Origin: Acidobacteriota bacterium
GTDB lineage: Bacteria > Acidobacteriota > Terriglobia > Terriglobales > Acidobacteriaceae
Assembly (NCBI GenBank): GCA_013289765.1
Contig: JABCZI010000009.1
Coordinates: 124,001 to 188,000 of the forward strand
Direction of reading: 5' to 3'
Length of the DNA: 64,000 nucleotides
The notes under the pieces were generated by a model, which was not told the DNA's origin, made no database searches, and worked only from the letters and a program-made list of their open reading frames with translations. This document shows, one piece after another, positions 15,067 through 24,362 of this stretch. How positions within the stretch are numbered: position 1 is the stretch's first letter; every line of letters starts with the position of its first letter. A program made the translations under genes and the position numbers.

Positions 15067-15903
15067 TCACCCAGCCAGCGATTCAATTTGCCGCACTACA
15101 TCACTCGAAAGCCCAAGCACGCCACTCGCCAAATCCTGCTTCATGTGCTCAGTATCAGAAGTTCCCGTCAGCGGCAGCATCCCGATCGCACGCGCAAAAG
15201 CGAACACAACTTGCGCCGGGTTCCCGCCGGCGCGCCGGGCGACATCGAGAACCAACGGATGCCGCAGCACCTCCACATTCGCCGTAAGCAGCGAAAATCC
15301 CTGATAGACAATCTTCCGTTCCCGGCAGAACAATCTTATATCGCGATCCCAGCCCAGCCTCGCGTAGCAGCGGTTCTGCACAAACGATGGAAGTTCAACA
15401 CCCAAAGCTTCCATCTGTTCCAGATGCTCTATCGAAACATTGCTTACTCCAAGCAGCCGCGTGCGACCGTCATCCCGCTCCTTCTTCATCGCGTTCCAAA
15501 CTTCCGTGTCCGTATCGGCCCAACCATATCCAGACGACGGACCATGCAGAACAAAACTGTCGACCCAATCGGTCCCAAGATGTTCCAGCGAACTCGCCAT
15601 CGACTGCGCGACCTGAACGGATAACTTTGCCATGGGATCATAGGGCAACCGATCGTCCTGTCCCGGCCGATAGGTAAATTTCGTCTGCAAGAAAAGCTGC
15701 GCTCGCGTCACCACTCCCGAGCGATATGCTGCTGCCAGCCCCTCACCTACTGCCGCCTCAAAATAATGGCGCCGTTGGTTGGCCGTATCGATCCCCCGAA
15801 ACCCCGCGCGCAGCGCCAGTTCCACCAGTGACGCAGTGCGCTCTTCCTTCCATGCGGTGCCATAAAGAAAATCAGGACTAGAACCAGCTCGCGAGATCTC
15901 CAT
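15067..15903 (-). CDS. Aldo/keto reductase
   Basis: About 278 aa with the NADPH-dependent aldo/keto reductase barrel. The active-site set is Asp in RGIDTANQ, Tyr in RRHYFEAAVGEG, Lys in LQTKF and His in FVLHGPS. I start at the ATG 15903 (MEISRAGSSPDF), not the GTG at 15960, because the added residues are not family-like. The gene is divergent from the truncated tRNA copy. The substrate is unknown. Confidence 0.88.
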   Translation of the reverse strand: MEISRAGSSPDFLYGTAWKEERTASLVELALRAGFRGIDTANQRRHYFEAAVGEGLAAAYRSGVVTRAQLFLQTKFTYRPGQDDRLPYDPMAKLSVQVAQSMASSLEHLGTDWVDSFVLHGPSSGYGWADTDTEVWNAMKKERDDGRTRLLGVSNVSIEHLEQMEALGVELPSFVQNRCYARLGWDRDIRLFCRERKIVYQGFSLLTANVEVLRHPLVLDVARRAGGNPAQVVFAFARAIGMLPLTGTSDTEHMKQDLASGVLGLSSDVVRQIESLAG

Positions 15904-16003
15904 GGCGTTATTCTGCCATGAACGTTGCACCGCACACTTCCACAAGACTCTCAGCGGCACTACTGTAAAATGTTTTCACGTCCGGTAAGCCTCCGTGAAA
16001 GGC

Positions 16004-16044
16004 CGGGCCCGTAGCTCAGCGGTTAGAGCAGTGGACTCATAATC
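16004..16044 (+). repeat. attL: 5' half of tRNA-Ile2 left by integration
   Basis: First 40 nt of the tRNA (acceptor 5' strand, D arm, anticodon arm up to TCATAATC) plus one preceding base, identical to 23331-23371. After 16044 the sequence diverges from the tRNA into element DNA. It cannot fold as a tRNA; the native tRNA promoter presumably lies upstream of it (weak -10 TAAAAT near 15966). Confidence 0.92.
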
Positions 16045-16151
16045 TCCTAATGCTCAGCCAGTTTCGATATTTGTCAATGACTTACGTGCTCTTCCGTGCT
16101 GCTAAATGCTGCCCTTTATCCGCGAATAAGTGAAAGATTTGTGAAAGAAAT

Positions 16152-16553
16152 TCACTTGCTGCCAGCAGCGCTTTTTGCTTTCTCGCCACGGCGTCGCTCT
16201 TTAGCGCCCATAGCTGTTAGCATCTTTGCTCGCGTCTCAGGGTCTTGGCGCCAGAAGTTGGCGCTTTGAAGTTGTCGTGCTTCAGGGTCTTCATAGTACT
16301 TCTTCATCACAGCCGACATCTGCGCTCTCGCCTCTGGATCTTCATAATGCTTCTTCTTTGCTGCTGACTGCCGTGCGCGAGCTTCGGGCGTTGCCTGAGC
16401 AATCTTTTGTGCTACTGAAGCCCGTGCGCGAGCTTCAGGATCAGCCCACCTAGCTTTTGCCGCAGCAGACCTTCGGGCGCTATATTCAGGGTCAGCCCAA
16501 ATAGCTTTCGCCGCAGCGGACCTTCGAGCGTGTTCCTCAGGGCTCTTCACCAT
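16152..16553 (-). CDS. NUMOD3-like modular repeat protein, possible DNA binding
   Basis: 133 aa made almost wholly of 15-18-residue units such as DPEARARASVAQKI, TPEARARQSAAKKKH and DPEARAQMSAVMKK, about seven in all. The pattern (acidic-E-x-R-x-x-x-S-x-A-x-K) resembles NUMOD3-type DNA-binding modules found attached to homing endonucleases, here without any nuclease domain. Highly basic. It is divergent from the methyltransferase gene. I do not know a characterised stand-alone homologue. Confidence 0.65.
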   Translation of the reverse strand: MVKSPEEHARRSAAAKAIWADPEYSARRSAAAKARWADPEARARASVAQKIAQATPEARARQSAAKKKHYEDPEARAQMSAVMKKYYEDPEARQLQSANFWRQDPETRAKMLTAMGAKERRRGEKAKSAAGSK

Positions 16554-16639
16554 CGTGTTCTCACGATACGAGAGCAGCGCTGAGCGTCGAAAGTTACCGT
16601 GGTGTCAGCATGGGGTGAGTTATACTTGCCAAGTCCAAG

Positions 16640-17578
16640 ATGCCCCAGCTTGCAAGTTTTGCCCTCAACTACGCGCACAAACCAGTCGGTAAATCACTCA
16701 TCGTTCATGCAGATTGTTTTGAGTGGATGGGGAGCGCTCCGGAAAGTTCGGTCCATGGCATTGTGACCGATCCGCCCTATGGCGTGAAGGAATATGAGTT
16801 CGATCAGCTTGAAAAACGTGCTAATGGCAATGGTGGAATCTGGCGCATCCCACCGTCATTTGATGGGTCTGTGCGCCAGCCTCTTCCACGCTTCACTGCG
16901 CTGAATGCCAAGGAGCGCAAGCAGCTTACCGAATTCTTCACCGAGTGGGCGAAGGTTGCAGTGCATGTGCTCAGACCGGGTGGTCACGTCTTCATTGCTA
17001 CAAACTCTTTCCTGTGCCAGTTGGTCTACAGCGCACTCGTAGCAGGAGGGCTTGAGTTTCGGGGTCAACTGATTCGTGTTGTGCAAACTCTACGCGGCGG
17101 TGACCGACCAAAGAACGCGGAAGAGGAATTTCCCGACGTATGCTCACTGCCACGTGGCAGCTACGAGCCGTGGGGGATCCTGCGCAAGCCGCTACCTGCT
17201 GGTTTGAAGGTGAGTGATTGTCTCCGCAAGTTTGAAACTGGCGGTTTGCGCCGCTTGCCGGAAGGGTTGCCGTTCACCGATCTTGTTGAAGCCGGACGCA
17301 CGCCGCGTGCAGAACGGCAGCTTGCTAAGCATCCAAGTCTGAAGCCGCAAGCGTTGCTGCGCGAGCTTGTCTATGCTGTACTGCCGCTGGGCAAGGGCAT
17401 CGTGCTTGACCCCTTCATGGGTTCGGGGTCAACAGTAGCAGCAGGGAATGCCGTAGGCGTGGCGTGTATCGGAGTCGAGAAGAACGAAGAGTATTTCGAA
17501 ACAGCAGCGCAATCAATTGAACGGTTGACTAATGTCGTTGTTCCGCGAGACCAGCTAAAGTTCCCCTTGCTGGCGTAG
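16640..17578 (+). CDS. Site-specific DNA methyltransferase (N6-adenine or N4-cytosine, beta class)
   Basis: 312 aa. The catalytic motif TDPPYGVKEYEF is near residue 48 and the SAM-binding motif DPFMGSGSTVAAG near 258; that order (IV before I) marks the beta class. The target-recognition region lies between about 75 and 240. DPPY is compatible with N6-adenine or N4-cytosine methylation. A TATACT box at 16621-16626 puts a start site only a few bases before the ATG, and there is no clear ribosome site. It overlaps the convergent nuclease gene by 24 bp, giving a type II restriction-modification pair. Confidence 0.9.
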   Translation: MPQLASFALNYAHKPVGKSLIVHADCFEWMGSAPESSVHGIVTDPPYGVKEYEFDQLEKRANGNGGIWRIPPSFDGSVRQPLPRFTALNAKERKQLTEFFTEWAKVAVHVLRPGGHVFIATNSFLCQLVYSALVAGGLEFRGQLIRVVQTLRGGDRPKNAEEEFPDVCSLPRGSYEPWGILRKPLPAGLKVSDCLRKFETGGLRRLPEGLPFTDLVEAGRTPRAERQLAKHPSLKPQALLRELVYAVLPLGKGIVLDPFMGSGSTVAAGNAVGVACIGVEKNEEYFETAAQSIERLTNVVVPRDQLKFPLLA

Positions 17579-18196
17579 CTCAGGGCACTTGTAAATCCAG
17601 TTTGCCATCATCTTCGCTGCGCCAGCTTTGGTCACACTTGCCGTAATCGTCCTGCGGCTAGTTTCTGAACGACCTGCAAAAAGCCAGTCAGCCTTCGTGA
17701 GCATGGCGCCCACGACCAGCAGAAATTTGAATGCTGTTGTCTTCTTCACTTTCGGTCCTTCACGCCCGCTCTGAAAGACGAAGACCAGCAGCCACACATC
17801 TTCAGCATTGTGACCCTGCCAGCCCTGCAAGTATCGTGAGGCTTTGATTTCGATTCCGTCGCTACCCGCGTGCTGCGCTGCATCGCCTGGATATTTCCCC
17901 GTTGGTAGCATGTCCGGGTGTCCGTTGTGATAGAGATTCTTGACCACAGTCGGACAGTGCTTCGGAATACGGGCGCCCATCATCTCACCCACCAAGCTGC
18001 TGAAGTTTGCCTGCATCATTGTGTTTTCTAAGCTGGCCATTTCCTTGGTGTGGAGCTGGCTATCAATCAGAGTGAGGAACTCGATGAAATCCTGCATCGC
18101 CGCTTGCACATGAGCAGTCGTGACGTTAAACGGAATTTTCGCATTCGGATTGAATCCATCTTTGTCGATGGGTTCGGGCAGGACGAGAGCGGCCAT
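17555..18196 (-). CDS. Putative type II restriction endonuclease (PD-(D/E)xK)
   Basis: 213 aa. The central stretch NGHPDMLP...GSDGIEIKASR has the spacing of a PD-(D/E)xK core (Asp of HPD, Glu-Ile-Lys of IEIKAS). It is followed by WQGHNAEDVWLLVFVF, a common beta strand after the active site in restriction enzymes. The nuclease role is supported by the tail-to-tail overlap with the methyltransferase. The recognition site cannot be predicted from sequence. Confidence 0.75.
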   Translation of the reverse strand: MAALVLPEPIDKDGFNPNAKIPFNVTTAHVQAAMQDFIEFLTLIDSQLHTKEMASLENTMMQANFSSLVGEMMGARIPKHCPTVVKNLYHNGHPDMLPTGKYPGDAAQHAGSDGIEIKASRYLQGWQGHNAEDVWLLVFVFQSGREGPKVKKTTAFKFLLVVGAMLTKADWLFAGRSETSRRTITASVTKAGAAKMMANWIYKCPELRQQGEL

Positions 18197-18252
18197 CGCC
18201 AGAAAGAATACAGGGCGCAGCAGTCATTGCCAAGGGGCGGTAACTATGGGGT

Positions 18253-18290
18253 CACCAAGGTGCTATTTACTGTCACCTGCTATCAGGTGA
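18253..18290. promoter_or_regulatory. Two palindromes upstream of the ribbon-helix-helix gene
   Basis: CACCAAGGTG (18253-18262) and TCACCT-GCTATC-AGGTGA (18273-18290) share the half-site TCACC/GGTGA and lie 12-50 bp before the ATG at 18302. Likely operators for the small DNA-binding protein encoded next. Confidence 0.55.
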
Positions 18291-18301
18291 TACTGGTTGA
18301 C

Positions 18302-18481
18302 ATGAAAGTGAAAGCGAAAGCACAACGCATTCCCGTAAACGTCGATCTCGAAGACTTTCAACGGCTGAAATCACTCTCTGAGGGCACTGGCATTCCAGCG
18401 TCGGCTTTGCTGCGTCGGGCGCTCAAAGAGTGGCTCGATGAAAATCAATCACGGCTGCTGAAGTTTCTCGGAACCAAATAA
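18302..18481 (+). CDS. Ribbon-helix-helix (CopG/Arc-like) DNA-binding protein
   Basis: 59 aa. The N-terminal basic strand KAQRIPVNVDLEDFQRLKSL followed by helix-turn-helix GTGIPASALLRRALKEWLDE is the ribbon-helix-helix pattern, a dimeric repressor fold. The frame is open further upstream, but the ATG at 18302 gives the correct domain length. No partner toxin lies beside it, so it is more likely an element regulator than an antitoxin. Confidence 0.75.
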   Translation: MKVKAKAQRIPVNVDLEDFQRLKSLSEGTGIPASALLRRALKEWLDENQSRLLKFLGTK

Positions 18482-18553
18482 CACAGCGGCTCTACCCAGC
18501 GCGTCAACGCTGAGCAGAGCCATCACCAAGTACACTCGCGGAGGCGAGCACAC

Positions 18554-18802
18554 ATGGCTGGATTAAAGTCTACCGGAAGGCAATCTCATGCTGCGCACTT
18601 CACCGACCACTTGGATTGTAACGAGCGAAATGCGCTCCGAGTACTGCTGCTGACAGAAAACGGACTCGCAGACCTCCGTCACGCTCTGAGCATCCACACG
18701 ATCCGCATTCTCTCTGATGCTGAATACAAGACGGGTTGCGCTCATCGCGGCACGACGGCGGACTTGTTCGACAAACATCGGCATGCAGTAGCGCCGCGCT
18801 AG
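18554..18802 (+). CDS. Small hypothetical protein
   Basis: 82 aa, not recognised. Support: a GGAGG ribosome site 9 bp before the ATG and a strong intrinsic terminator on the same strand right after the stop. An overlapping reading frame on the other strand (18563-18784) has neither. Confidence 0.4.
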   Translation: MAGLKSTGRQSHAAHFTDHLDCNERNALRVLLLTENGLADLRHALSIHTIRILSDAEYKTGCAHRGTTADLFDKHRHAVAPR

Positions 18803-18821
18803 ACTTTTCCCCGTCGCACTC

Positions 18822-18855
18822 AGCCCTGCGGACTCGCATCCCGCAGGGCTTTTTT
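18822..18855 (+). terminator. Intrinsic terminator
   Basis: AGCCCTGCGG (18822-18831) and CCGCAGGGCT (18841-18850) form a perfect 10-bp stem with a 9-nt loop, followed by TTTTT. Ends + strand transcription of the RHH and small-protein genes. Confidence 0.9.
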
Positions 18856-18905
18856 CATGTACTCAGACACTCATCCATTCTCAGGACGACGCGCTCCGCG
18901 AGTCC

Positions 18906-19616
18906 CTATGCTGCCACTTGGCGGGGTTTGTGCCGTTTGCTGCGGCTGAACATCCGTCTACCGTTAATCGAGTTTGGCTCTGGGTAGCCGAGTTCGATAG
19001 ATTCATTGGTCAAGCGTCGGATGATCTGGCGAATGGTGCAAGACTTCAAACCGAGATCGCCGGAAATCTGCGACGAGTTCAGACCCTCTCGGAAATATTT
19101 CCAAATGATCGCGCAGAGAATGCGAACTGGATCACGGTTGAAAATGAGAGCGGCGTCGTACTCTGTGATCAAGCACCTAATCCGCTGGCGGCGCTCCGCA
19201 TCAGTGTCACTAGATTTCAATGAGATGTACTCTGCACAAAGCGTATCGAGTCGCTGCTCAAGTCGCGGCATCTGCTGCCGGATGACCGACTCCGCATTCT
19301 GAATCTGCTGCTCCAATGTTCCAGTCGCAGACAAGCACTTCAGGCGACCGCTACGCCGTTCGAGATATCTCAGCAGCACTCGCTGAAGGTCGGGAATGTT
19401 CAGCGCCCAAACTGGCACTTCAAAGCTGCGCCCTTTGAAGCTCTTCGGACCTTTGTAGGTAGCCATGCGCCCGATGTCTTCATATGCAAGTCCGGTTGAT
19501 TCAGTACCGCCATCAGCGATGGAATGCGCGTTAACAGGGTATTGCTTTGTGAATTGAAAAATGTGGGTATCGAAATGATCGGCTTGCGGCTGCGTTGGAC
19601 AGAAAGTTACTTGCAT
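18906..19616 (-). CDS. Element-encoded HTH protein of unknown function
   Basis: 236 aa from the ATG at 19616, which has a clear AAGGGG ribosome site; an in-frame start further upstream is less likely. The middle is helical (about residues 105-165, coiled-coil-like). The C-terminal part, WKYFREGLNSSQISGDLGL then TIRQIIRRLT, looks like a winged or simple helix-turn-helix. It ends in a very basic tail. Not recognised beyond that; perhaps an element replication or regulatory protein. Confidence 0.65.
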   Translation of the reverse strand: MQVTFCPTQPQADHFDTHIFQFTKQYPVNAHSIADGGTESTGLAYEDIGRMATYKGPKSFKGRSFEVPVWALNIPDLQRVLLRYLERRSGRLKCLSATGTLEQQIQNAESVIRQQMPRLEQRLDTLCAEYISLKSSDTDAERRQRIRCLITEYDAALIFNRDPVRILCAIIWKYFREGLNSSQISGDLGLKSCTIRQIIRRLTNESIELGYPEPNSINGRRMFSRSKRHKPRQVAA

Positions 19617-19806
19617 TGTGGTCCCCTTACTGTCGGAAGGAGTGTTTGGGTTCTCCCGAAGATGAGCGGAGCAGGTTTTCTCAACGCCCATCAACGAGGA
19701 ACTTTTTGTGTGAGAGCAGAAAAGGAGGTTAACTGCTCCCACACCGCTGCTCAGGACTCACGATCTCAAGCAGCACGGCGCCCACATCACTAGGCGCCGA
19801 AAACTT

Positions 19807-20046
19807 TTAGACACACTTGATGCCAGATTGAATCCGAGGCTGCACAACGCCGTAGAGCACAACAGCGCGCTCGTCGTCGGTTAATGGACGACCGCCAACA
19901 GCTTTGCAAGCATCTCGCAACTTTCCGAGCTGCTCATCAGTGAGAGCAGCGCCACGAATGAAGTTGACCCACGAATGGTCACGATCTGCGCGGGATTTTT
20001 CGACCTGATTTGTTGCCGCTCGTTGCTGGTCCACATGTTCAAACAT
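19807..20046 (-). CDS. Small phage-type hypothetical protein
   Basis: 79 aa starting MFEHVDQQRAATNQVEK, with an AAGGAG ribosome site 8 bp upstream. Helical, charged, no recognised domain. It lies downstream of the collagen-like gene in the leftward block of the element and overlaps no other good candidate. Confidence 0.6.
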   Translation of the reverse strand: MFEHVDQQRAATNQVEKSRADRDHSWVNFIRGAALTDEQLGKLRDACKAVGGRPLTDDERAVVLYGVVQPRIQSGIKCV

Positions 20047-20086
20047 TTCTATCTCCTTGAAAAAAGTTCGTCTTTTGAAAGTGCTC

Positions 20087-20539
20087 TCACAGCGCCCGCG
20101 CCGCTGCTTTCGAGCGCAGCCACTGTATGTATTCGCCAGCCCGCGCATTCATGTCGAGCAGACCTTGCACCGTCGTTTTGAGCGTCGCCAATTCAGCACG
20201 GCAATTTGCAATCACTGCTCTCGCCTCTGCCAGTGCTTCGGTGGTGTCCGGTCCGGCTGGACCACGTTCGCCGCGGTCCCCCTTGGGTCCGGCGAGGCCA
20301 ACAGCCCCGGCAGGTCCCGCTACAGTTGAATCCCTTCCCGGCAGGCCGGGTGCCCCCTCTCTCCCGTTTCTACACTGGCAATCCGAACCGTCGCGCCCAG
20401 CTTTTCCTGCTGGTCCGGGGACTGCTGGGCGCTGTTGCAGCGAAGTCACATCGCGACGCAACTCGGTAGCTGCATTCTCTAAGAGCCCAAGACGCGAGTG
20501 TACGGCGAATTTGTTTGGTGATGTTTGGTTGCTTGCCAT
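20087..20539 (-). CDS. Collagen-like protein, probable phage fibre component
   Basis: 150 aa. An N-terminal helical segment (to about residue 37) is followed by Gly-X-Y triplets: PGPAGKAGRDGSD, a short CQCRNG break, then REGAPGLPGRDSTVAGPAGAVG and onward to GPAGP (about residues 40-98). A C-terminal helix follows (LAEARAVIANCRAELATLKTTVQ). Collagen-like triple helices flanked by coiled coils are typical of phage tail fibres and particle spikes. AGGAGA ribosome site. Next to the head-tail adaptor gene. The two Cys in CQC could crosslink chains. Confidence 0.8.
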   Translation of the reverse strand: MASNQTSPNKFAVHSRLGLLENAATELRRDVTSLQQRPAVPGPAGKAGRDGSDCQCRNGREGAPGLPGRDSTVAGPAGAVGLAGPKGDRGERGPAGPDTTEALAEARAVIANCRAELATLKTTVQGLLDMNARAGEYIQWLRSKAAARAL

Positions 20540-20547
20540 GATGTCTC

Positions 20548-21147
20548 CTAATTCAGGTCTCTCGGTTGCGCAGTGATCTGCTGGCGGCTGTCGTTAATTT
20601 CGACACACATCAGACACAGCATCTTGTTCCGCTCATCGGGGTTCTGCACCGATGTGATTTGGAATTGTCTACCGTTAAACCACACCTGAAGAGCCGACGT
20701 AACTCCGGTGTACGGTGGCGCCACGCCCAAGTTTTTCCACTCGATGCCTGTGCTCGGATCACCGTCAGCGGTAAAGCTGCCAGCTACTCCATTCCACGGC
20801 TGCGGAGCAAAAGGACCGGAGAGTCCAGCCGACTGCGCTTGCTGAAGATTGCCGTTCGAGTCTTCGCAGAGGTAGCCAACAGGGTACTCAGTGTTCGCTT
20901 GCCATGACGGAGCAGCACCGATGTATCTGATGATGACTTGATGAGTCACCAGCGAAGCCTGCGACTCCAGGACGAGAGTCTCCATACCGGAGAGCGCTTC
21001 CACGCTGCTCCAGACATTCGCATAGAGCACATCGGCAGACTTATTGAATCCCCCGGTGCTGTCCTGCACGTTGGACACTTTTACCAAGTCAATGCGATGC
21101 CGCAACTTTCCTGCTTGAAGCCTTCCGTTTCTCCATTGAATAGCCAT
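20548..21147 (-). CDS. Phage head-tail adaptor-like protein with inserted module
   Basis: 199 aa. The start QAGKLRHRIDLVKVSNVQDSTGGFNKSADVLYANVWSSVEALSGME matches the head-closure/head-tail joining family (SPP1 gp16, HK97 gp10-like), which is normally about 110 aa. The C-terminal strand FQITSVQNPDERNKML fits the same family. Between them, about residues 80-145 form an extra Trp-, Gly- and Pro-rich module (WQANTEYPVGYLCEDSNG, WNGVAG) resembling small carbohydrate-binding repeats. The start is the ATG at 21147; an upstream extension is unlikely. Confidence 0.72.
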   Translation of the reverse strand: MAIQWRNGRLQAGKLRHRIDLVKVSNVQDSTGGFNKSADVLYANVWSSVEALSGMETLVLESQASLVTHQVIIRYIGAAPSWQANTEYPVGYLCEDSNGNLQQAQSAGLSGPFAPQPWNGVAGSFTADGDPSTGIEWKNLGVAPPYTGVTSALQVWFNGRQFQITSVQNPDERNKMLCLMCVEINDSRQQITAQPRDLN

Positions 21148-21173
21148 TGATTTAAGCCTTATTCTGCTCGGCT

Positions 21174-21917
21174 TTATCTTGTTGCGAGCGCCTTCTTGCT
21201 TGCCGCACATGCTCTTGCGCCGTCCTCAGAATCTTCGGTTTCAGCAGCACGGGCGTGGAGGTCCGCAGCAGCGTGATGAGCAGCACAGGAGTCCATAGTC
21301 TTTGCTTTGCTTGCGCACGCCCGATGATACTTAGCAGCCTCTTGATGCTCGCGCATCGTCATTTCAGGGTCGCTCACCGCTCCACCATCTGCTCGTATCT
21401 GTCTACCAACTGCGGCGCAACGTAGCTGGTTGAAAGCATCTTCGCTGTAGCCGAGTTTCCTACCGCGCAATACATCCTCAAATGAAAGTGGGCTGTACTG
21501 TGCAGCAAGGCTTCGAGCATCAGCGATGCGCTGCCGCCGCCCAGCTTCGAATGCGGCGATCTGAGCACGAATCGGCGCCTGATCTGAGACAGGAGTGATG
21601 CAGTAATCAACTCTGCGAGCTTGCACTGAAGTCCCCCGAGGGTAGGCAGGTGAGGCTACTGGCGCAACGTCCAGCAGGAGAGCACGCTTGATCAGGCGTA
21701 GAGCGCATATCTTGTTGCCTGCTTGGTCGTGATGCTCGTGGCCAGTGGCGCAACCCACAATTGCTGCCCTGCGCTCACTGTGATACGCACGCTTTGCTCG
21801 TTGACGTGCGATTTTGCGATCATGTGCGCGGAATGCGGAGATAACCAGTCCGACGGGTGTCTGACGCCACCTGCGCTGCCTCTCAGCGTTACTGTCATTT
21901 TGCTCAGATAGAGACAC
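21174..21917 (-). CDS. Possible HK97-type prohead protease remnant with helical tail
   Basis: 247 aa from a GTG. The stretch LIKRALLLDVAPVASPAYPRGTSVQARR resembles the C-terminal end of the HK97 prohead protease family (LxEVSPVxxPAYPxTSV), but the N-terminal catalytic part (His-Ser) is not evident. The C-terminal 60 residues are Ala/His-rich helix (HQEAAKYHRACASKAK, HHAAADLHARAAE), as seen in phage assembly proteins. It could be a decayed protease or a scaffold-like protein; the start is uncertain. Confidence 0.45.
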   Translation of the reverse strand: MSLSEQNDSNAERQRRWRQTPVGLVISAFRAHDRKIARQRAKRAYHSERRAAIVGCATGHEHHDQAGNKICALRLIKRALLLDVAPVASPAYPRGTSVQARRVDYCITPVSDQAPIRAQIAAFEAGRRQRIADARSLAAQYSPLSFEDVLRGRKLGYSEDAFNQLRCAAVGRQIRADGGAVSDPEMTMREHQEAAKYHRACASKAKTMDSCAAHHAAADLHARAAETEDSEDGARACAASKKALATR

Positions 21918-22011
21918 GAATCCGACCCTCCCCTGTATGACTTTGAGCTTCCCAACTGGAATGAGTATGCTACAAAACGGGAGGCAAAGTCAACGCTAAA
22001 CTATTGAAAAC

Positions 22012-22070
22012 ACTATAGTTACAGCTATCACCTACTATAGTTCGCTGACAGTTGCTGTAGAGCGCTATAG
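22012..22070. repeat. ACTATAG repeats upstream of the integrase
   Basis: ACTATAGTT at 22012-22020 and 22034-22042 (22 bp apart) and GCTATAG at 22064-22070, in an AT-rich 200-bp gap between the protease-like gene and the integrase. Candidate arm-type integrase sites or regulator binding sites; they surround the likely integrase promoter. Confidence 0.5.
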
Positions 22071-22128
22071 ATTCCGCTGCTACTCCCATCACTTAGAGCA
22101 TAAGATGTTGTGGTGAAAAGGAGAGCGC

Positions 22129-23325
22129 ATGGGACGACGAGCTAAAGGTGAAGGGTCGCTGCTGAAAATTTATGGGAAGAAGGACGCAAACGGCAATAAG
22201 AAAGCCGTCAGCGAGATTTGGTATGCGCAGTACCGTCACCATGGTAAAACGGTGCGCGTCAGCACTGGCGAAACATCGAAAATGAAGGCGCTCCACGAAC
22301 TGCGTCGTCTGATGAGTGAGCGCGATGGCGGCTTGGCGCCTGATGCAAACAAACTCCGCTATGCTGATTTACGGCAGATGCTGATTGACAACTATAGAGA
22401 GAAAGAGAATCGCACGCTGACGACCGACGCTGATGGGGAAGAAACAGTCCATGGCCTGAAGCAGCTTGACCAGTTTTTCGGATACGGCAAAGATAACCCA
22501 GGTCCGCGAGTCTTTGAAATAACCCCGCAGACTTCGCAGCACTTCGCACGTAAGCGGAAGGCGCAAGGCGTTGGCAATGCGATCATCAACCGTGGCTTGG
22601 CATGTCTGCGCCGGATGCTGCGGATCGCACATGGAGACGACAGGATCGCGCGAGTCCCCAAAGTGCATTTTCTGCCGGAGCCACGAGCGCGGAAGGGATT
22701 TCTCGAACTGCCAAAATTTAATGAGCTACTGGCGCTGCTGCCGACACACCTGAAGCCGCTCGTCCTCTTCTTGTACTACTGCGGAGTGAGAGGCGGCGAA
22801 GCAAAGCAAATTGAATGGTCGCAGGTCGATCTCGACAGGCGGCTCATCAGGCTTGAAGAAGAGCAGACCAAAACAGATGAGGCACGATACGCGCCTTTGC
22901 CAGCGGAGCTAGTGATGCTGCTGAAGACTATTGAGCCAAAAACTGGGAAAGTTTTCGATGACAAGAATCTGAGGGTAGAATGGCAGAAGGCTTGCGCTGC
23001 ATGCGGACAGGGCACGCGGACGCTAGTTGAGCCAAAAACCAAGGGCGGATGGTCATGGTACAGGTACAAAGGGCTTGCGGTCCATGATCTACGACGTAGC
23101 GCAGTGCGCAATCTGGTTACGGTTGCAAGCGTACCTGAGAAAGTTGCCATGTCGATAAGCGGTCACAAGACGAGAGCCGTATTCGACAGATACCACATCG
23201 TCAGCACAACAGATGTGAGTGCGGCGATGAGCAAACTCGAATTAGCCGCCAGCGGGATTGGTGAAAGTCTTGTGAAAGAAGAGATTGCTGCTAGCAAGAA
23301 GAAGCGTGCAAGTAGCAGAAAATAA
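22129..23325 (+). CDS. int: Tyrosine recombinase (phage-type integrase)
   Basis: 398 aa. The catalytic set is Arg in YYCGVRGGEAKQ near residue 218, HDLRRS near 318 (His and second Arg), GHKTRAVFDRY near 344-354 with the nucleophile Tyr. The N-terminal half holds an arm-binding/SAM-like domain. Ribosome site AAGGAGAGCGC before the ATG. The stop codon ends 6 bp before the tRNA, so the att site lies immediately downstream, the usual integrase-att linkage. Confidence 0.95.
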   Translation: MGRRAKGEGSLLKIYGKKDANGNKKAVSEIWYAQYRHHGKTVRVSTGETSKMKALHELRRLMSERDGGLAPDANKLRYADLRQMLIDNYREKENRTLTTDADGEETVHGLKQLDQFFGYGKDNPGPRVFEITPQTSQHFARKRKAQGVGNAIINRGLACLRRMLRIAHGDDRIARVPKVHFLPEPRARKGFLELPKFNELLALLPTHLKPLVLFLYYCGVRGGEAKQIEWSQVDLDRRLIRLEEEQTKTDEARYAPLPAELVMLLKTIEPKTGKVFDDKNLRVEWQKACAACGQGTRTLVEPKTKGGWSWYRYKGLAVHDLRRSAVRNLVTVASVPEKVAMSISGHKTRAVFDRYHIVSTTDVSAAMSKLELAASGIGESLVKEEIAASKKKRASSRK

Positions 23326-23330
23326 ACAAT

Positions 23331-23371
23331 CGGGCCCGTAGCTCAGCGGTTAGAGCAGTGGACTCATAATC
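23331..23371 (+). repeat. attR: 41-bp direct repeat inside the intact tRNA
   Basis: Identical to 16004-16044. It ends in the 3' side of the anticodon stem; from 23372 the chromosomal 3' half of the tRNA continues. Confidence 0.92.
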
Positions 23372-23407
23372 CATTGGTCCAAGGTTCAAATCCTTGCGGG
23401 CCCACCA
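23332..23407 (+). tRNA. tRNA-Ile2 (anticodon CAU, lysidine type)
   Basis: 76 nt with CCA encoded. Acceptor GGGCCCG pairs with CGGGCCC. D stem GCTC/GAGC, anticodon stem GTGGA/TCCAT with loop CTCATAA (anticodon CAT), T stem CAAGG/CCTTG. The loop context ACTCATAATC is that of the minor isoleucine tRNA whose C34 is changed to lysidine by TilS, reading AUA, not of Met tRNAs. The 5' half derives from the inserted element. No promoter space separates it from the integrase gene. Confidence 0.95.
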
Positions 23408-23519
23408 ATTTCTCGGGGAAGTAGCTCCGCATCCGCTCCGAAGTATTTTCGCGATGCCGATTCCCCTGGCAGTCTTATTCCAGTTTGCGGAGATTTCAAC
23501 TCAATGTGACAATGTGTGC

Positions 23520-24362
23520 ATGCATAAATCTTTCACCACAGCGATACATATATTCGCGGCTGCGATGCTGCTAGGGAATGGCCTGGCGCAGGACACTCCG
23601 GCCCCGACAACTCCAAAAGCTCCGTCATCGGCGGCTACTGCCGGCAAAGCTCAGACTCCGGCGGCAAAGCGCCCGGCCACCGGCGCAAAGACCTCAGCCC
23701 CGCTCGCGCTCAAAACTTCAAAAGATAAATTCAGCTACGCTCTCGGAATGAAGATGGGCGCGAATCTCCACAAGCAATCGGTTCCGGTAGACCCAAATAT
23801 TATGGCGCGTGGCTTGAAAGATGGCCTCACCGGCGGTAAGACTTTGCTTACCGAGGAACAGGCGCAAGCCGCCATCGTGGAAGTGCAGAACGATATGCGC
23901 AAAAAGCAGCAGGAGAAAATGCAAGCGGAAGGCGCCGGAAACAAGAAAGAAGGAGACGCTTTTCTTGCTGCCAACAAAGCTAAAGAAGGCGTAGTCGCAT
24001 TGCCCAGCGGCTTGCAATACAAAATTCTGAAAGCAGGCACGGGACCGAAGCCCACGGCGGCCGATTCCGTGGTTTGCAACTATCGCGGCACGCTGATCAA
24101 CGGCACGGAGTTCGACAGCTCCTACAAGCGCGGCCAGCCCGCGACCTTCCCCGTGACCGGCGTCATTAAAGGATGGACCGAGGCGCTTCAACTCATGCCA
24201 GTCGGCTCCAAGTGGCAACTGTTTATCCCTCCCGATCTTGCTTATGGGGAGCGCGGACCGGCTCCTGAAATTGGTTCAAACTCTACACTAGTGTTTGAAG
24301 TGGAACTCTTGTCGATCGAAAACAAGGACAAGGCTTCCGATAAAGATCAACCGAAGAAATAA
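23520..24362 (+). CDS. Secreted FKBP-type peptidyl-prolyl isomerase (Mip/FkpA-like)
   Basis: 280 aa from the ATG at 23520. Signal peptide MHKSFTTAIHIFAAAMLLGNGLAQ, then a Pro/Ala/Thr/Lys-rich linker. An FKBP N-terminal dimerisation domain follows (FSYALGMKMGANLHKQSVPVD to about residue 165), then the C-terminal FKBP domain with YRGTLINGTEFDSSYKRG, GVIKGWTEALQLMPVGSKW and IPPDLAYGERG. Periplasmic folding helper. Upstream in-frame residues before 23520 include tRNA sequence and are not coding. Confidence 0.93.
   Translation: MHKSFTTAIHIFAAAMLLGNGLAQDTPAPTTPKAPSSAATAGKAQTPAAKRPATGAKTSAPLALKTSKDKFSYALGMKMGANLHKQSVPVDPNIMARGLKDGLTGGKTLLTEEQAQAAIVEVQNDMRKKQQEKMQAEGAGNKKEGDAFLAANKAKEGVVALPSGLQYKILKAGTGPKPTAADSVVCNYRGTLINGTEFDSSYKRGQPATFPVTGVIKGWTEALQLMPVGSKWQLFIPPDLAYGERGPAPEIGSNSTLVFEVELLSIENKDKASDKDQPKK

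Follow-up and report, generated by a model that had tools for sequence, protein, structure and literature searches.

A tRNA-Ile2 gene rebuilt directly behind the integrase of an integrated element in an Acidobacteriota genome, and its probable reliance on element DNA

In a stretch of 64,000 nucleotides from an Acidobacteriota bacterium of the family Acidobacteriaceae (GenBank assembly GCA_013289765.1, contig JABCZI010000009.1, positions 124,001 to 188,000; called the window here, and numbered from its first letter), a tRNA-Ile2 gene with the anticodon CAU has been rebuilt directly behind the tyrosine integrase gene (int) of a 7.3-kb integrated element. The rebuilt gene very probably depends on element DNA, and we favor, with moderate confidence and on sequence grounds, transcription of int as the main source of the tRNA. 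We hypothesize that the element recombined, through its tyrosine integrase, into the 5' half of tRNA-Ile2(CAU), probably at the anticodon stem-loop, supplying a tRNA 5' half of its own that was joined to the chromosomal 3' half; that the tRNA would now arise chiefly as the 3' end of the int transcript, to be released by RNase P, while a weak promoter within the final 60 nt of int could supplement or replace int transcription; and that cells would in this way come to depend on the element's DNA, a state reversible for as long as int and both attachment (att) sites work and permanent after the element has decayed. Taken as a whole (dependence on element DNA, int transcription as the main supply, and the outcome after decay), we consider this explanation reasonably probable.

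The geometry of the junction is clear. ARAGORN, run on the whole window, reports a single tRNA, at 23332-23407 on the + strand with anticodon CAU. The int reading frame (22129..23325, +; PF00589, E 5.8e-13; phrog_1, E 1.9e-38) is intact at 398 aa in the integrated element, and with its end at 23325 the spacing from the stop codon to the tRNA is 6 nt, so that the tRNA starts at the seventh nucleotide past the stop, as a first-pass annotation of this DNA had read it. Nucleotides 1-40 of the tRNA are repeated exactly at 16005-16044 (no match in 100 shuffles), and the repeat comes to 41 bp once the preceding C is counted: the left att repeat at 16004..16044 (+) is a dead tRNA 5' half, and the right att repeat at 23331..23371 (+) is the element-borne 5' half of the intact gene, whose 3' half is chromosomal. 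The att site lies within the tRNA 5' half, and the 5' fragment stands 7.3 kb upstream of the intact tRNA in the same orientation, the native promoter region being separated from the intact gene by the body of the element (16045..23330).

The unoccupied site can be read in relatives. We examined 41 distinct Ile2 loci from the same genus, one per genome (45 rows with 4 repeats; second copies in three genomes were left out). At 6 of the 41 (L084, L086, L094, L096, L097 and L103), an aldo/keto reductase gene (AKR) upstream and an FKBP gene downstream flank the tRNA within about 0.7 kb, and these are the same two genes that border the element in the window: the AKR at 15070..15960 (-; PF00248, E 7.8e-23) as left chromosomal neighbor and an FKBP-type peptidyl-prolyl isomerase at 23520..24362 (+; PF00254, PF01346) as the right one. 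The upstream stretch TACTGTAAAATGTTTGCACGTCC of L086 differs by one base from the DNA preceding the dead half in the window, which identifies the part left behind as the native 5' flank, promoter-like box included. That box, a -10-like CTGTAAAATGT at 15963..15973 (+), recurs before the intact tRNA at the unoccupied loci L086, L099 and L101, in agreement with the earlier claim that native upstream DNA had stayed in front of the half copy. Cut off from this region, the tRNA is now preceded by element DNA alone, and the proposal that its expression relies on such DNA is well supported. Int or an int tail lies directly before the tRNA at 4 of the 41 same-genus loci (the window and genomes G001, G012 and G016), in the last three at 6-9 nt from the same tRNA.

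The arrangement is not confined to the genus. The integrase was searched in 41 genomes, its C-terminal part was aligned in the 45 same-genus genomes, and its last 111 residues were sought in 399 genomes of the class; the survey set, scanned by script, comprised 160 loci, 10 named contigs included, with 146 distinct integrase ends, and consisted of the best-scoring matches and 60 further places down the list rather than a random sample. Forty-eight ends run into a same-strand tRNA (co-directional; gap -37 to 96 nt), another 48 meet a tRNA head-on (convergent), and the other 50 show neither arrangement or lack a tRNA nearby. Among the 60 rows long enough for a tree (27 co-directional, 33 convergent), the orientation label needs 7 changes, versus about 20 when shuffled, and the window integrase falls in a clade of 11 rows, all co-directional, with support 100/99 and with Ile2, Glu, Gln, Thr and Asn tRNAs as targets. 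The co-directional int-tRNA arrangement is typical of one integrase clade in the host's class. A displaced same-strand tRNA 5' piece of 39-43 nt was found in 4 of the 23 co-directional cases searched upstream (L193, L203, L210 and contig C3 of the host genome, G000:C3), and opposite-strand partial matches in three of them (L240, L254, L255); with G016, G001 and the window, seven co-directional cases have a displaced 5' half. Many contigs or stretches ended before the upstream searches did, and at the remaining co-directional junctions we infer such a half. Short int frames, with locus edges excluded, make up 19 of the 48 co-directional and 12 of the 48 convergent cases in a search that targeted the C-terminal part of int. 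In four co-directional cases (two full frames, L170 and L058, and two short ones, L151 and L221) the int frame enters the tRNA by 10-37 nt, the last codons there being tRNA sequence. A separate observation concerns L270 (G251:C14), where two tRNA-Asp 5' pieces stand 8.4 and 9.9 kb away from the int end, the nearer preceded, by eye, by the arm-like motif discussed below; this looks like tandem elements at one tRNA.

Several of these junctions carry only the remains of an element. In G001, an int C-terminal remnant of about 115 codons ends 6 nt before the intact tRNA, and a dead 22-nt tRNA start lies 2.9 kb upstream, still behind a native TGTGCTAGATTTG box; the gene between the dead half and the stub runs opposite and appears by eye to be alpha-galactosidase-like. 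In G012, where one tRNA gene was found, the tRNA lies 6 nt behind the tail of a 113-codon int stub, and no convincing half copy was detected (best 21 nt, E 0.02); the stub is bounded upstream, by eye, by a stop codon that seemingly ends another gene. As to a possible single event behind the two stubs, none of four G001 neighbor proteins was matched in the G012 stretches searched. In G016, residues 111-370 of int were matched, and another contig holds a half copy (93% over 43 nt) together with a TATGCTAGATTGA box; both G016 and G001 retain a native TGCTAGATT box beside the dead half. The host genome has its own case at tRNA-Arg(ACG) (C3:165781), which stands behind a decayed element of about 1.9 kb with an int stub (L061 / L278, G000:C3:163931-165857): a dead 41-nt tRNA 5' half (97.6%) at C3:163931 follows TTATAATTC, and in the intervening DNA, after a G+C-rich hairpin, stands a TGCTATGAT box belonging to the intact gene (6.93, p 0.07). 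The remnants in G001, in G012 and at tRNA-Arg(ACG) imply that reliance on element DNA can persist after the element has died, and that reliance on the int promoter need not.

How the tRNA is transcribed is the more difficult question. The first-pass annotation had held that it is transcribed with the integrase unless a promoter lies in the int 3' end; we find no strong promoter there, although a weak box is present. A motif search run unseeded on the flanks of the 40 remaining host tRNAs yielded a motif that does not resemble a promoter, and it was replaced by seeded -10 models and other flank sets. The seeded models were a position weight matrix (PWM) from the host's own genome, an Ile2 model, and a PWM trained on native flanks at convergent loci; they show TGnTAnAAT-type boxes upstream of other tRNAs of the host and, in front of many unoccupied Ile2 genes, a strong TGCTAGATTGA box. 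By the own-genome PWM the stranded native flank scores 8.88, with 0.4% of shuffles as high, versus 1.64 on the intact-tRNA side (73% of shuffles as high); by the Ile2 model the values are 9.49 and 5.24 (9.2%). Upstream of int lies a promoter-like CTGACA-17-TAGATT (22045..22073, +), amid CTATAG repeats, which is the sole + strand site at a 9-of-12 threshold in 21800-23600; both strands of this interval hold 3 threshold sites versus 1.4 +/- 1.1 in shuffles, which is weak evidence alone.

A second line of evidence comes from what occupies the place where a tRNA promoter would be expected. Unseeded searches recovered the -10 box TGnTAnAAT from 47 native flanks and TAAGTngtTGA from 41 int-side flanks, both well above five shuffled sets each, and co-transcription with int is proposed because the usual stretch of the tRNA -10 box is taken up by the latter, probably an arm site bound by the integrase (Int). 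Arm-type tyrosine integrase sites look like inverted copies flanking a core. In the window, the right arm-like motif GCAAGTAGCAGAA (23308..23320, +) is contained in the final codons of int and stops 11 nt short of the tRNA (a score reached by 1.5% of shuffled 60-nt flanks; rank 12th in the whole element), and the left one, GTAAGTCATTGAC (16073..16085, -), is inverted, 28 nt inside the left core, and is the best match in the whole element on both strands. The motif model was built from 12 sites picked by eye, with the window row left out, and right-end hits at the training loci are circular because the model derives from them. The left-end motif on the opposite strand is supported in the window, L193 and L203, is weak in L210 (its score being reached by 8% of shuffles), lies on the other strand at G000:C3, and is absent in G016 and G001; the right-end motif is absent in L193, G012 and G000:C3.

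A number of observations weigh against int transcription as the main supply, and several of them favor instead a tRNA promoter inside the int 3' end that would make int transcription unnecessary, an explanation we regard as rather doubtful. Its candidate is a weak extended -10-like TGCTAGCAAGA at 23289..23299 (+), chosen by two of the three -10 profiles (Ile2 and convergent-trained, p 0.09 and 0.04), and the convergent-trained PWM reverses the order of the two sides in the window (int side 7.66, p 0.04; native side 4.2, p 0.26). By a fixed consensus score, the native side of the window reaches no more than 7.7 in a 30-nt range (11.0 in a 45-nt one), there is no significant difference between the int-side and native flank sets (p 0.34), the 90th percentile of shuffles is surpassed by 33% of 42 int-side flanks versus 55% of 47 native ones, and int-side flanks score above int interiors (p 2.5e-7), which may differ from int 3' ends in composition. 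In related junctions (L039, TATAAT; L240, TAGAAT; L254 and L257, TAAACT) the int stop lies wholly or partly inside a -10 box, and the score before the dead half is the lower one in the window and L210 (2 of the 7 two-half elements); the left half of L210 seems to follow another element. At G001 and G012, the 5' two thirds of int and the int promoter are missing from the site while the single tRNA copy persists, and G001 and G016 are themselves drafts with estimated contamination of 9% and 7%. Three CTATAG palindromes surround the putative int promoter (22012-22078) and are possibly an operator; such repeats hint at regulation of int, which would fit poorly with a constant need for the tRNA. 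Precise excision, finally, would restore the native promoter and make any tie to int conditional.

Against the internal promoter, the candidate hexamer lacks its final T, the window int side, at 7.5 by the fixed consensus score, equals the int-interior median of 7.45, and the low own-genome PWM score on that side belongs to a best place other than 23289-23299. The apparent enrichment over interiors vanishes against shuffles with an independent PWM, the convergent-trained one (p 0.36), and by cross-trained profiles -10 boxes at shuffle p <= 0.05 occur in 11-20% of 44 int-side flanks, versus 25-65% of native sets; we claim such boxes for a minority of int-side flanks only, a share that makes an internal promoter in the window possible. 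In 5 of the 7 two-half elements (G016, G001, G000:C3, L193 and L203), the stronger -10 score is the one preceding the dead half rather than the intact tRNA, although the left score in L203 is no better than shuffles (p 0.36). On this sequence evidence, int-coupled transcription appears the likeliest source of the tRNA, with a weak internal promoter also conceivable. The stronger claim that the host is tied to integrase transcription is plausible, in that the one promoter-like + strand site reaching the threshold in 21800-23600 precedes int, but the tie is not obligatory, as G001 and G012 indicate.

It is very unlikely that a second tRNA-Ile2 gene, absent from the assembly or unrecognized in it, removes the dependence. 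The first-pass annotation had called for a count of tRNA-Ile(CAU) genes and had named a second intact one as what would refute it; a direct Ile2 search of the host draft assembly (4.80 Mb, 18 contigs, 97.6% complete), with 17 of 17 candidates scored, returned one full match, the gene in the window, and the half copy. This search is stronger evidence than the list of host tRNAs, which holds at least 41 (150 of 186 candidates scored) but is incomplete, with Ile(GAU), Ala(UGC), Cys and Gly(GCC) absent. These missing genes and the draft state leave some room for a second copy, as do two full-length Ile2 matches in 3 of 41 same-genus genomes; the other 38 have one (45 genomes were covered, 43 with some Ile2 match and 41 with a full-length match at >= 80% identity). 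The host has three CAU tRNA genes of differing sequence, all labeled Met by ARAGORN, which we take from their sequence features to be the Ile2 type described here, an initiator type (L016) and an elongator-Met type (L022). Of the earlier description of such a tRNA as usually single-copy and essential, the single copy is borne out in the draft assembly, and essentiality is suggested by that copy number, by the use of AUA codons (48 of 15622 codons in 42 non-overlapping, mechanically chosen window open reading frames (ORFs) of >= 200 aa) and by the presence of TilS in the host genome. As a separate observation, L130 (G014:C21), L131 (G021:C427) and L121 (G050:C205) have, 2.4-9.3 kb downstream of the full copy and on its strand, partial matches to the tRNA-Ile2 3' half, which may reflect other elements that split the gene from the opposite end.

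Read-through from the native promoter across the whole element is scarcely credible, for although promoter and tRNA share their chromosomal orientation, a transcript would have 7.3 kb to cross and would be opposed by six - strand ORFs between 17.5 and 21.9 kb. These six are among ten ORFs that we picked as element genes from a mechanical list, seven of them on the - strand, and two of the six have family matches.

Besides int, the element body encodes a DNA methylase, an Arc-like ribbon-helix-helix protein, a head closure protein Hc1, a collagen-like tail-type ORF and unmatched ORFs, and the family matches of the non-int ORFs suggest a reduced prophage or satellite. A short ORF at 16152-16553 (-) consists of near-repeats (ADPEARA-type) with a weak phrog_22215 match, and these may resemble the DNA-binding repeats of some homing endonucleases. 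Elsewhere in the host genome, an intact 469-aa integrase frame of another subfamily (G000:C3, about 312200-313720; L009 1498-3024) ends 39 nt before a same-strand tRNA-Val(UAC), making a third co-directional junction, the far end of which was sought within 1.5 kb; and a 462-aa integrase frame on the other strand (G000:C8; L005 1501-2900) overlaps tRNA-Lys(UUU) by 65 nt with its 3' end, in a convergent arrangement.

Beyond this locus, we advance tentatively, and with somewhat less than even confidence, a broader idea: that the integrase clade uses the host tRNA as the 3' cistron of int, that the int tail, with its arm site, its stop codon and sometimes a -10 box, would act as a regulatory region of the tRNA kept by the host after the death of the element, that a ratchet would fix int stubs as tRNA leaders (as in G001, G012 and the host tRNA-Arg(ACG)), and that arm-bound Int could gate a needed tRNA. 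The interest of the system is that a needed tRNA loses its native promoter, and that the arrangement recurs in one bacterial class. It makes testable the route of tRNA expression, the need for int transcription when the element is integrated, and the binding of cells to dead elements; an integrase stub immediately preceding a tRNA, together with a 5' half stranded further upstream, is a sequence sign by which more cases can be sought.

The element resembles the tRNA-site islands of the Islander database (PMC4383910), in whose passages on islands a split tRNA has an intact copy at one end, a 5' fragment at the other and an integrase between, a displaced 5' fragment being recorded in 159 of 3919 islands; the window element shows the features of this 5'-fragment class, namely an integrase in the interval, a co-oriented upstream 5' fragment and an empty site in relatives. 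Promoter loss and fixation after decay do not figure in those passages. In the parts of two papers on pTN3-like archaeal integrases (PMC8371274, PMC5495485) that bear on the question, the att site also lies in the tRNA 5' half with 41 bp shared, and the rebuilt tRNA, separated from its original promoter, is stated to be expressed from the integrase promoter; these systems differ in being archaeal and in that integration disrupts int, whereas the window int stands whole beside the tRNA. The former paper, citing Williams 2002, describes such expression from the integrase as seldom met in bacteria. The dusA-associated islands, as described in passages of PMC4482086, likewise place an integrase beside a rebuilt gene with an island-derived 5' end and putative promoter boxes, but their target is a protein gene rather than a tRNA. 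In tRNA-dependent lysogeny, as outlined in PMC10865867, a host tRNA function also comes to rely on an element; there, however, no rebuilding of the tRNA takes place and the phage brings a separate tRNA that complements it, whereas in the window the tRNA is rebuilt and ARAGORN finds no second, complementing one. Among the papers listed in our literature searches, none dealt with tRNA promoters inside bacterial integrase tails. What is already known is the expression of a rebuilt tRNA from integrase DNA in archaea, called rare in bacteria; what is new is the recurrence of co-directional int-tRNA junctions in one bacterial class, with an intact abutting int in some and remnants left at the tRNA in others.
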